This document shows, piece after piece, positions 15,060 to 41,346 of a DNA stretch of 64,000 bases. Position numbers and translations under genes: made by a program. Under the pieces are notes generated by a model. That model was given only the letters and a program-made list of their open reading frames with translations, was not told the DNA's origin and made no database searches. The DNA comes from Hydra vulgaris (Eukaryota > Cnidaria > Hydrozoa > Anthoathecata > Hydridae): the NCBI RefSeq assembly GCF_038396675.1, contig NC_088921.1, positions 616,501-680,500 of the forward strand. The letters are read 5' to 3'. Every line of letters begins with the position of its first letter. The first letter of the stretch is position 1.

Positions 15060-15067
15060 GGCGTGAG
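15060..15067. repeat. 8-bp target site duplication, left copy (GGCGTGAG)
   Basis: Identical to 41339-41346, immediately outside the right TIR. Eight to nine bp is characteristic of Mutator-like elements. The chance of an exact match directly abutting both TIRs is low. Confidence 0.88.
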
Positions 15068-15118
15068 GAGTAGGTACAAACGGCGGGGCGGAGCGGATCA
15101 GCGGGGCGGATCATTTAA
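15068..15118 (+). repeat. left TIR of giant MULE
   Basis: A strongly GC-rich island in AT-rich DNA: GAGTAGGTACAAACGGCGGG, then GCGG-rich words and GGCGGATCATTTAA. It differs from the reverse complement of 41288-41338 at only three positions (13, 25 and 49). Just inside it, the words GCGGGGCGGATCATTTAAAC and GGTACAAACG repeat with a 30-bp period (15101-15160), so this end has been locally duplicated. Confidence 0.9.
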
Positions 15119-15289
15119 ACGGTACAAACGGCGGGGCGGATCATTTAAACGGTACTTAAGCGAATCATATTTCATAAAATAAACACAAAAAATACAATTT
15201 AGATATAGTTTAATTTCATTAAAAAATATAATATTTAGAAGATTTTTCCATATTATAATTTTATTAAACTTTATTATATTTTATAAATT

Positions 15290-18200
15290 TTATGAACTCA
15301 AAAAACAAAGTGACCCTCCAATTTATATCCGCACAATTATATTAAGTGATCCGCCTAATATTTTAATTGTTTGTATCAAATTCTAAAAACTATAATGATT
15401 GTAGTACCAAAAAACAACGTGATCCGCCAATTTGTATCAAGTGATCCGCCAAACTTTATGAAGTGATCCACGGAATACTTTCATTGCTTGAATCGAATTC
15501 TATAAATTTTAATGGTTGTTCTACAAATAAAACAACATGATCCGCCAAATTATATTAAGTGATCCGGCAAATATTTTGATTGTTTGAATCAAACTCCTTT
15601 AATTTTAATGATTGTTCTACCAAACAACAACGTGATCCGCCAATTTGTATCAAATGATCCGCCAAATTTTATGAAGTGATCCACCTAATATTATGATTGT
15701 TTGAATAAAATTCTATAAATTTTTATGGTTGTTCTACAAAAAAACAACGTGATCCGCCAATATGAATCAAGTGATCCGCCAAATTTTATGAAGCAATCCG
15801 TCTATTATTTTAGACGTTTGAATCAAATTCTATAAATTTTAATGGTTGTTCTACAAGAAAACAATATCATCAGCAAATTTATATCAAGTGATCCGCCATA
15901 GTTTATGAAGTGATCAGCCTAATCTTTTGATTATTTGAATCAAACTCTATAAGTGGTAATGGTTGTTCTACAAAAAAACAACATGATCCGCCAAGTTATA
16001 TCAAGTGATCCGCCAAATTTTATGAAGTGATCCGCATAATATTTTGATTGTTTGAATCAAACTCTATAAGTGGTAATGGTTATTCTACAAAAAAACAACA
16101 TGATCCGCCAAATTATATCAAGTGATCCGCCATATTTTATAAAGTGATCAGCCTAATATTTTGATTTTTTGAATCAAACTCCTTTAATTTTAATGATTGT
16201 TCTACCAAAAAACAACGTGATCCGCCAATTATATCAAGTGATCCGCAAAATTTTATGAAGTGATCCGTCTAATATTTTGATTATTTGAATCAAACTCTAT
16301 AAGTGGTAATGGTTGTTCTACAAAAAAACAACATGATCCGCCAATTTATATCAAGTGATTCGCCAAATTTTATGAAGTGATCCGCATAATATTTTGATTG
16401 TTTGAATCAAATTCTATAAATTTTTATGGTTGTTCTACAAAAAACAACGTGATCCGCCGATTTGTATTAAGAGATCCGCCTAATATTTTGATAATTTGAA
16501 TCAAGCTCTATAAATTTTAATGATTGTAGTACCGAAAAACAACGTGATCCGCCAATTTATATCAAGTGATCCGCCTAATATTTTGATTGTTTGAATCAAA
16601 CTCCTTTAAGTTTAATGATTATTCTACCGAAAAACAACGTCTATTATTTTGGACCTTTAAATCAAATTCTATAAATTTTAATGGTTGTTCTACAAAAAAG
16701 CAACATGATCAGCAAATTTATATCAAGTAATCCGTCATATTTTATGAAGTGATCAGCCTAATCTTTTGATAATTTGAATCAAACTCTATAAGCAGTAATG
16801 GTTATTCTACAAAAAAACAACATGATCCGCCAATTATATCAAGTGATCCGCCAAATTTTATGAAATGATCCGCCTAATATTTTGATTGTTTGAATCAAAC
16901 TCTATAAGTGGTAATGGTTATTCTACAAAAAAACAACATGATCCGCCAATTTATATCAAGTGATCCGCCATATTTTATAAAGTGATCAGCCTAATATTTT
17001 GATTTTTTGAATCAAACTCCTTTAATTTTAATGATTGTTCTACCAAAAAACAACGTGATCCGCCAATTATATCAAGTGATCCGCCAAATTTTATGAAGTG
17101 ATCCGCATAATATTTTGATTGTTTGAATCAAATTCTATAAATTTTTATGGTTGTTCTACAAAAAACAACGTGATCCGCCAATATGTATCAAGTGATCCGA
17201 CAAATTTTATGAAGTGATCAGCCTAATATTTTGATTGCTTGAATCAAATTCTATAAATTTTTATGGTTGTTCTACAAAAAACAACGTGATCCGCCAATTT
17301 GTATTAAGAGATCCGCCTAATATTTTGATTATTTGAATCAAGCTCTATAAATTTTAATGATTGTAGTACCGAAAAACAACGTGATCCGCCAATTTATATC
17401 AAGTGATCCGCCTAATATTTTGATTGTTTGAATCAAACTCCTTTAAGTTTAATGATTATTCTACCGAAAAACAATGTGATCCGCCAATTATATCAAGTGA
17501 TCCGCCAAATTTTATGAAGTGATCCGCCTAATATTTTGATTGTTTGAATCAAACTCTATAAGTGGTAATGGTTATTCTACAAAAAAACAACATGATCCGC
17601 CAAATTATATCAAGTGATCCGCCATATTTTATGAAGTGATCAGCCTAATATTTTGATTTTTTGAATCAAACTCCTTTAATTTTAATGGTTGTTCTAAAAA
17701 AAAACAACGTGATCCGCCAATATGTATCAAGTGATCCGCCAAATTTTATGAAGCGATCCGTCTATTATTTTGGACCATTGAATCAAATTCTATATATTTT
17801 AATGGTTGTTCTACAAAAAAGCAACATGATCAGCAAATTTATATCAAGTGATCCGTCATATTTTATGAAGTGATCAGCCTAATCTTTTGATTATTTGAAT
17901 CAAACTCTATAAGCAGTAATGGTTATTCTACAAAAAAACAACATGATCCGCCAATTATATCAAGTGATCCGCCAAATTTTATGAAATGATCCGCCTAATA
18001 TTTTGATTATTTGAATCAAACTCTATAAGTGGTAATGGTTATTCTACAAAAAAACAACATGATCCGCCAGTTTATATCAAGTGATCCGCCATATTTTATA
18101 AAGTGATCAGCCTAATATTTTGATTTTTTGAATCAAACTCCTTTAATTTTAATGATTGTTCTACCAAAAACTAACGTGATCCGCCAATTATATCAAGTGA

Positions 18201-41200: not shown

Positions 41201-41205
41201 GTCAT
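34285..41205 (-). CDS. six-exon MULE transposase: CG-1-like, DDE, SWIM, Ulp1-like, PHD (954 aa predicted)
   Basis: Exons on the minus strand are 41205-41058, 38419-38204, 37876-36848, 36697-36367, 35551-35336 and 35209-34285. Every junction has GT-AG ends, and phases agree (1, 1, 1, 2, 2). The total of 2865 nt gives 954 residues plus TAG. Residues about 28-112 resemble a CG-1 DNA-binding domain. The MULE RNase H-like core carries D234, D297 and E410. The SWIM finger uses C537, C539, C545 and H547. A Ulp1-like protease region spans about 700-870, with H780 and C838. A PHD finger fills 903-953. No internal stop interrupts the model. The start ATG lies close to the right TIR. The acceptor of the last exon is only moderately strong. 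An alternative is termination in exon 4, where reading through the donor gives a stop at 36348. Confidence 0.8.
35336..35551 (-). CDS. exon 5 of MULE transposase: linker
   Basis: A 216-nt exon between acceptor TATTTTTAG and donor GTAAAT reads [16 protein letters not shown], then a Ser-rich linker ending SQNEM. It keeps phase with both neighbours. No domain was recognised. The basic start could be a localisation or DNA-contact segment (inference). Confidence 0.65.
35717..35941. repeat. (TA)n with short interruptions in MULE intron 4
   Basis: Two pure TA tracts separated by a GTATGTATGTACG segment. Inside the 815-bp intron between exons 4 and 5. Confidence 0.9.
36367..36697 (-). CDS. exon 4 of MULE transposase: SWIM zinc finger
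   Basis: Acceptor AATAATTTAG and donor GTACAT bound a 331-nt exon. [11 protein letters not shown] supplies the C-x-C...C-x-H SWIM pattern, about 130 residues after the catalytic Glu as in other MULE proteins. If the donor is not used the frame stops 19 bp later at 36348, which would give a shorter protein without the protease. Confidence 0.82.
36848..37876 (-). CDS. exon 3 of MULE transposase: DDE catalytic core
   Basis: Opens at acceptor ATATTTCAG with [13 protein letters not shown]. Key motifs are [14 protein letters not shown] (first Asp, residue 234), [14 protein letters not shown] (second Asp, 297), CSNH (the C-x2-H typical of MULE cores) and [11 protein letters not shown] (Glu, 410). 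It ends at donor GTATGT. The catalytic triad spacing and order fit Mutator-type transposases. Confidence 0.87.
37890..37985. repeat. (TA)n in MULE intron 2
   Basis: TA and CACACATA-type repeats immediately upstream of the exon 3 acceptor. A G-run (about 38028-38043) follows on the plus strand. Confidence 0.9.
38204..41205 (-). CDS. exons 1-2 of MULE transposase: CG-1-like DNA-binding region
   Basis: Exon 1 (41205-41058) starts [14 protein letters not shown] and ends ...EVYVIQVNH before donor GTAAAG. Exon 2 (38419-38204) begins [10 protein letters not shown] after acceptor TTTTTTAG and includes KFVYCDL and [10 protein letters not shown] before donor GTAAAT. The order RP, G-x-V/F-Y, DGYRW, K and a hydrophobic VIHY end matches the CG-1 domain of CAMTA-type proteins. 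Homology is judged by motif only. The 2.6-kb intron 1 holds (TA)n, (TAG)n, a LINE scrap and several palindromes. Confidence 0.65.
38431..38500. repeat. (TA)n in MULE intron 1
   Basis: About 70 bp of TA just upstream of the exon 2 acceptor (38420-38421). Positions 37890 and 35717 show the same association of introns with TA tracts. Confidence 0.9.
39000..39091. repeat. (TAG)n trinucleotide repeat
   Basis: About 30 TAG units with a few CAG interruptions, within MULE intron 1. The poly-Leu frame on the opposite strand is a repeat artefact. Confidence 0.93.
39400..40935. repeat. cluster of quasi-palindromes in MULE intron 1
   Basis: Several inverted duplications lie close together. One has arms CAATAAACACA and TGTGTTTATTG around TTGCTACCTAGGTAGCAA (39525-39585). 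A second has arms AAATTTAAACAAAAATTACTT-like (40228-40310). A third is around TTATGTTATACATAGCATAA (40528-40562). A fourth of about 150 bp has arms ATGCCTAAGTAAAGTTGGAT-like and their complement (40778-40930). They have mostly unrelated sequences, so they are independent inverted duplications. Confidence 0.75.
39680..39800 (-). pseudogene. short LINE 3' coding fragment
   Basis: The minus strand reads [21 protein letters not shown]. It resembles the C-terminal polymerase segment at 63767-63952 (YRAPHYLTTDSIIYLFKS). It is a small scrap of the same LINE family, now in a MULE intron. Confidence 0.5.
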
Positions 41206-41287
41206 TTCTTTAAAAAAAAATTTAGCAATATGTTTGCTAAGGTTGAATTCGATTGCAGAAATCTAACTATTAAAAGTGCCGTGTTAC

Positions 41288-41338
41288 TTGAATGATCCGC
41301 CCCGCTGATCCGCCCCGCCCCGCCGATTGTACCTACTC
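41288..41338 (-). repeat. right TIR of giant MULE
   Basis: On the plus strand it contains TGATCCGCCCCGC, a second TGATCCGCCCCGCCCCGCCG, and ends TTGTACCTACTC. It is the reverse complement of 15068-15118 with three mismatches. The exon 1 ATG at 41205 lies just inside. Confidence 0.9.
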
Positions 41339-41346
41339 GGCGTGAG
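41339..41346. repeat. 8-bp target site duplication, right copy (GGCGTGAG)
   Basis: Exact copy of 15060-15067. Confidence 0.88.

Follow-up and report, generated by a model that had tools for sequence, protein, structure and literature searches.

How does a Mutator-like element (MULE) come to span 26 kb, and does the satellite DNA that makes up more than half of it belong to the transposon or only travel with it? The question is raised by a 64,000-nucleotide stretch of Hydra vulgaris DNA (NCBI RefSeq assembly GCF_038396675.1, contig NC_088921.1, forward-strand positions 616,501 to 680,500), referred to here as the window (C2:616501-680500 of the 15 contigs, 911.5 Mb in all, that we searched). 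A first-pass annotation, made from the letters alone, had described one giant MULE with 51-bp terminal inverted repeats (TIRs; 48 matches), an exact flanking 8-bp repeat and a length of 26,271 bp; the coordinates and all of these values proved exact. In our analysis the unit is probably a structurally complete, autonomous-looking cut-and-paste MULE whose own array of end motifs has reached 14.5 kb in this copy.

The transposon occupies positions 15,068-41,338 of the window. Its two inverted ends differ at positions 13, 25, and 49, and the terminal 24 bases, searched with up to three mismatches, occur in the window only at the two element ends (0 matches expected from 100 shuffles). The 8-bp sequence GGCGTGAG is present in the window at exactly two places, 15060-15067 and 41339-41346. 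We joined the two 150-bp flanks with a single GGCGTGAG and searched this query genome-wide, which returned paralogous unoccupied sites on the same contig as the window, with junction identities up to 94%. All eight of the sites fetched carry one GGCGTGAG at the insertion point, as the first-pass annotation had anticipated for an empty site; the window duplication is therefore 8 bp and the insertion was precise. These sites also rule out a chance pairing of two unrelated ends. The repeat that received the insertion (flanks 14918-15067 and 41339-41496) is nearly specific to C2, which holds 46 of its 48 match rows outside the window, nearly all of them within the first 18.6 Mb (best 40 of 42 candidates). 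The ends and the array are arranged as follows.

15060 to 15067, no strand: target-site duplication, left copy (GGCGTGAG; single in the fetched empty sites)
15068 to 15118, plus strand: left TIR, 51 bp, with two GCGGATCA motifs (window comparison and genome matches)
15121 to 15143, plus strand: second, internal copy of the end core (GGTACAAACGGCGGGGCGGATCA; window sequence and cross-family comparison of ends)
15327 to 29865, plus strand: satellite array of ~117-bp monomers with higher-order duplications (motif count, monomer survey, self-paralogs)
41288 to 41338, minus strand: right TIR, 51 bp (window comparison and genome matches)
41339 to 41346, no strand: target-site duplication, right copy (GGCGTGAG; flank comparison and empty sites)

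Of the 39 other genome matches listed for the left TIR, 38 start within four bases of its first base. The GGTACAAACGGCGGGGCGGATCA core copy is found in the left ends of both element families described below and is missing from the right ends compared, over their first 70 bases.

The array covers 14,539 bp, or 55% of the element, which bears out the earlier claim that more than half is satellite. Its monomer consensus holds three copies of TGATCCGCC, which is the end motif in inverse orientation to the left end. For GCGGATCA, a component of both ends, the window contains 238 occurrences where 0.27 would be expected. The array has the same orientation in all 19 long left ends examined (the window and 18 others), where it starts 249-290 bp from the left end. 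It spans 0.9-3.6 kb in 16 of the 18 other long left ends; the exceptions are L016, whose array runs into N at 0.7 kb, and L027, where it is interrupted and spans 8.2 kb. In all six complete long copies (those of the window, C14, C10, and C6, and two C8 duplicates of one insertion) it lies on the left only. We retrieved 49 exact genome matches of the array pattern, versus none for the reversed control. Of these, 47 fall within listed left ends, including 19 in the window, and another, on C4, is opposite a listed right end. The sole match with no end nearby, among the best 40 matches listed per end search, is C2:11725903.

The array thus belongs to the element: its distance from the left end, and from that end only, is nearly fixed, its orientation is constant, and its length varies between copies. 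An independent satellite DNA does not fit a pattern with one match in 49 lying away from a listed element end, and an unrelated passenger is ruled out by the end-motif content, the fixed place and the pattern matches inside family elements. Nor is this a foldback element, in which both ends would consist of long inverted repeats made up of tandem units. The first-pass annotation had regarded the element as a carrier of other repeats; for the satellite this does not hold, since it is not foreign cargo but an array specific to the family, built from the end motif and placed at a fixed position in the long left ends examined. The array-like stretch at C2:11725903 is ~78% identical to the satellite.

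Within the window array, every one of 121 segments of 468 bp has a paralog, with best identities of 86.1-100% (median 99.4%), and the offsets between paralogs repeat at 1,238, 1,589, 2,544, 4,181, and 9,086 bases; recent growth by block duplication follows from these values. Through unequal exchange or slippage between monomers the array would be able to grow and shrink, and the window copy would then represent a long allele of an element otherwise of ~12-14 kb.

In order to count other copies, as the first-pass annotation had proposed, we searched the genome with each end (at least 40 matches for the left and at least 40 for the right), built pairs from the matches listed, and excluded unpartnered left-end matches from the count. 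This gave 20 paired copies in addition to the window, making 21 elements of 1.1-38.8 kb among the matches listed, and 14 of the 20 are 7-14 kb long. For the scoring of duplications, the right boundaries of the C3 copy, C2:57360853, and C12:211553 were moved by 1-4 bases to the best boundary. Perfect duplications of at least 9 bp flank 14 of the 21 pairs, one of them within a TA microsatellite. Of the remainder, the window has 8 bp, three pairs match at 8 of 9 positions, two at 7 of 9, and one pair has none; this last, C13:20101147, is a doubtful pairing with a partial right match. Among 420 unmatched flank pairs used as a control, a single pair was perfect over at least 8 bp, and there was no case of 8 of 9. 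The C6 copy is inserted in a common repeat, and each best match (best 40 of 322 candidates) crosses the joined junction at 93-95% identity.

Flanks and duplications are common to the two members of a C8 pair and to those of a C12 pair, so the 21 elements represent at most 19 independent insertions. The C8 copies (C8:57410427 and C8:54768493) have the same flanks, lie 2.6 Mb apart in opposite orientation and form a segmental duplication. The C12 copies, of 27.6 and 38.8 kb, have one duplication and one set of flanks in common and are therefore one insertion. Fifteen samples of 300 bases taken within them contained array (1), N (3), other element parts (3), or neither array nor element (8). The array monomers were confined to sample L083, 0.9 kb from the left end, and the other 14 samples (3 of them N) had no motif. 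These copies are thus ruled out as array giants, and from the content of the samples we read them as lengthened by other insertions and by gaps. Both lie in the first 0.5 Mb of C12 (121134-148776 and 211553-250385), inverted relative to each other, and the end matches at 64927 (minus) and 306398 (plus) face likewise; the arrangement is either a large palindromic duplication near the contig end or an assembly artefact.

The closest relative of the window element is a 13,504-bp sister copy on C14 with its own 9-bp duplication. Left end, cargo, gene and right end follow in the same order in both copies. Outside the array the two are collinear, with 97.3-97.5% identity in long gapped pieces that include microsatellites, and 12 substitutions in 7,152 bases of 11 chosen unique segments (0.17%). 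The sister pair shows a lineage that, judged by this divergence, moved recently. The size gap of 12.8 kb is nearly all array (14.5 kb in the window versus 2.2 kb on C14). The four internal block duplicates of the window array diverge by 0.6-2.1% and the collinear array ends of the two copies by ~1%, compared with the 0.17% of the unique DNA. Two further features lie between array and gene.

31334 to 32697, no strand: nested element resembling a miniature inverted-repeat transposable element (MITE), lying within a TA microsatellite and bounded by inverted repeats of 26 bp without mismatch (window sequence and comparison with C14)
33120 to 34190, no strand: minisatellite of ~18-bp units, shared with the sister copy (sequence and C14 alignment)

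The MITE is identical on C14 over 1363 of 1363 aligned bases, and no match to it longer than 150 bp was found elsewhere in the loci compared, including L015, L017, L018, and L020, which match both of its sides. It therefore entered a common ancestor of the two copies and was then carried along, so that a nested element has been brought to a second site by a MULE. To this extent the description as a carrier is correct. The claim of several nested transposons reduces to this one clear case; TA-microsatellite arms account for all 25 of the longest inverted repeats listed between 29860 and 34280.

The coding capacity lies next to the right end, on the minus strand. We picked six exons by hand, and the resulting model predicts an uninterrupted protein of 954 amino acids, with GT/AG introns in matching phases. 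The start codon at 41205 is 83 bases from the right TIR, the distance given in the first-pass annotation. The gene runs toward the array and stops before it.

41058 to 41205, minus strand: exon 1, with the start codon (gene model)
38204 to 38419, minus strand: exon 2 (gene model)
36848 to 37876, minus strand: exon 3, MULE DDE domain (gene model and Pfam)
36367 to 36697, minus strand: exon 4, SWIM-like zinc finger, below the Pfam cut-off (gene model and Pfam)
35336 to 35551, minus strand: exon 5 (gene model)
34285 to 35209, minus strand: exon 6, Ulp1-like region and PHD finger (gene model and Pfam; Ulp1 through likeness to relatives)

The MULE domain (PF10551) was detected at E 7.7e-8, with 33.1 bits against a cut-off of 27.6, and the PHD finger at E 4.2e-6, above its Pfam cut-off. 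The D, D, and E columns are nearly invariant in an alignment of relatives, in which the window protein is not a row, and the matching residues can be read in the window gene model. The three closest protein matches are annotated as Hydra vulgaris. By its DDE domain, its inverted ends and a duplication of 8-11 bp (mostly 9 bp), the element belongs to the Mutator/MULE superfamily. Together with the empty sites, these features give good support for MULE cut-and-paste as its way of moving. The earlier view of a single Mutator-like unit with intact ends is sustained by the MULE domain, the other copies and the paralogous empty sites.

Other parts of the protein were less easily classified. No Pfam match to C48 (Ulp1) was obtained for the window protein at E<=1; the region was recognized through its relatives, of which P0013 matches C48 at 6.7e-7 and whose profile matches SENP1 at 2.7e-6. 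At the position of the catalytic Asp, the window model and P0003-P0007 (P0003 being from Hydra) have Cys, and P0008, P0011, and P0013 have Asp; the activity of this protease-like domain may accordingly be lost or altered. The FLYWCH finger that marks the Phantom subclass was absent from Pfam scans of the window protein and its relatives. A CG-1 domain was found above the cut-off in P0011 (1.5e-7), with values of 0.07 in the window protein and 0.007 in another Hydra relative; WRKY matches were weak, the structure 1wj2 being reached at E 0.0058 with the relatives' profile. The N-terminus thus appears weakly CG-1/WRKY-like. Because these scores are weak in the window protein, a designation as "MULE with N-terminal CG-1/WRKY-like domain" is only a lead.

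A search with exon 1 identified nine places with 57-59% identity and led to a second family. Upstream stretches were fetched for seven of them, and the right end was located in four (L049, L051, L052, and L055), reading GGGTAGGTACAATCGGCTGAGCAGAGCAGATTGGCTGAGCAGATCA in L049 and L051; a search with this right end gave at least 40 genome matches. Three of its elements were checked for duplications, two having 9 bp and one 8 bp. Here too a one-sided array in the same relative orientation is present in all seven fetched left ends of long elements, beginning ~100 bp inside the left end and built of a 30-bp unit with the core TGATCAGCC. With low-complexity filtering, BLAST of two of these arrays against the window element gave no match, and around the core 17 of 20 bases align between the arrays of the two families. 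The repeated modules of the ends differ between the families in parallel, being GGCGGGGCGGAT in one and GGCTGAGCAGAT in the other. The base that discriminates them was counted in 17 of 19 family 1 arrays (without L016 and L027), giving C 590, A 88, and T 20 of 698 sites, and in 5 of 7 family 2 arrays (without L087 and L088), giving A at 138 of 138. A third family, approached through the relative P0012, yielded mostly short or broken matches, and no end in the two stretches fetched.

What could such an array do? Because the GGC(G/T)...GATCA module is repeated in the ends and changes in parallel between the families, it is the candidate site that the transposase would recognize. The array would then be an accessory docking platform on one side, which would load transposase or set the asymmetry of the ends. 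Docking is our preferred inference from these sequence patterns, held at slightly less than even confidence. A broader proposal is more tentative: the one-sided inverted arrays would be a conserved functional part, a transposase antenna co-evolving with the ends, with array length tuning transposition and with runaway growth giving birth to satellite DNA inside a mobile, uninterrupted transposon. Several observations weigh against a functional array. In family 1 the motif columns exceed the rest in conservation by a small margin (in the window array 0.944 versus 0.897, ranking 8 among 116 shifts; in the other copies 0.928 versus 0.887, rank 5 of 116), and in family 2 they show no better conservation (0.979 versus 0.955, rank 12 of 28), for which reason we rejected motif conservation inside the arrays as proof of function. 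The covariation of ends and arrays (GGCG versus GGCT) is not clean, since 88 of the 698 family 1 sites have the family 2 base. Motif spacing differs, being mostly 22 + 73 bp in family 1 versus 30 + 15 bp in family 2; helical phasing of the motifs, which the 22/73-bp spacing seemed to offer, was ruled out by the family 2 values. The small family 2-like elements L064 and L089 have no array, nor does the 1.1-kb derivative C2:57360853, which has both ends and a near-duplication of 8 of 9 bp; an array in cis may therefore not be required.

Much of this would be expected if the array is a neutral by-product, in which subterminal end repeats were duplicated by slippage or unequal exchange, were homogenized and have no role, the core persisting through homogenization and the shared ancestry of the families. 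We consider this nearly as likely as docking, because the motif columns are hardly better conserved than the spacers. The wide range of the uninterrupted arrays (0.9-14.5 kb), the higher-order duplications in the window array and the array-less derivative with both ends are in line with it. What neutrality accounts for less readily is that a one-sided array has kept its orientation and place in two families (19 of 19 and 7 of 7 long left ends) even though their arrays are unmatched by BLAST. It is unlikely that the array instead acts as a dosage brake, lowering transposase activity by titration or silencing chromatin; more than 200 motif copies in cis beside one end, and a gene directed toward the array and terminating short of it, would suit a brake, but the 0.17% divergence of the sister pair points to recent movement of the lineage. 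Least probable by far is that the ends derive from different elements or that the 26-kb unit is an assembly artefact. The window duplication of 8 bp, versus 9 in most relatives, and the N runs in some other copies could be read in this way; for the ends, the empty sites with one GGCGTGAG refute it, and the sister copy has all the same parts, from left end through cargo and gene to right end, in unchanged order.

We compared the element with published systems. Hydra Mutator (MuDR-type) elements with a Ulp1 domain were reported by Bao & Jurka (Repbase Reports 2008, cited in PMC2836005), and a figure legend of PMC2836005 describes an alignment of Ulp1 and PHD domains of Mutator transposases. As far as the description allows comparison, these share with the window element the host genus, a Mutator transposase and an Ulp1-like region; the parts of PMC2836005 available to us mention neither a one-sided satellite array nor 26-kb copies. 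The Tetris foldback transposon of Drosophila virilis (PMC4079207) resembles our element in its 8-10 bp duplications, its kilobase-size arrays and its tandem end units sharing a terminal stretch. According to that source, its repeats lie within the inverted repeats, it is without conserved open reading frames, and it seeded satellite-like arrays, whereas the window element has an array on one side beside an uninterrupted gene, with 48 of 49 pattern matches in family elements. Muta1 and its relatives in Aedes aegypti (PMC5225508) and Tm1 in root-knot nematodes (PMC3169594) are likewise described as MULEs with 8-9 bp duplications and copy-variable subterminal tandem repeats, but their repeats are of 9-15 bp and lie inside the inverted repeats, in contrast to a 117-bp unit with three inverted end motifs, at one end, reaching 14.5 kb. 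In Galileo, of the P superfamily, tandem end repeats are said in the Tetris paper (PMC4079207) to add transposase binding sites for a THAP domain; it differs from our element in superfamily and DNA-binding domain, and its repeats again lie within the inverted repeats. Mutator ends in placozoans are reported to contain a motif that is enriched at the anchors of chromatin loops, and by analogy a loop-anchor role is another conceivable use for such arrays. With respect to size, a review passage gives the Pack-MULEs of one study as at most 7 kb.

A one-sided satellite in a Hydra MULE was not found in the literature searched, which covered titles and abstract openings and lay outside most subscription journals and Repbase. 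Set against the systems compared, the element stands apart by having, in two families, an array of kilobase scale that is inverted, confined to one side and adjacent to an uninterrupted gene. It links the birth of a satellite, the size of a transposon and transposase recognition in one genome. The window and C14 copies, 0.17% apart with arrays of 14.5 and 2.2 kb, amount to a natural experiment on array function, for which the second family is a partly independent replicate, and the MITE provides a case of a nested element carried by a MULE to a new site.

Elsewhere in the window, the minus strand carries transposase fragments with DUF4371 (1771-2769) and DDE_1 (7452-8525), which we take to be hAT-like and pogo-like, respectively.

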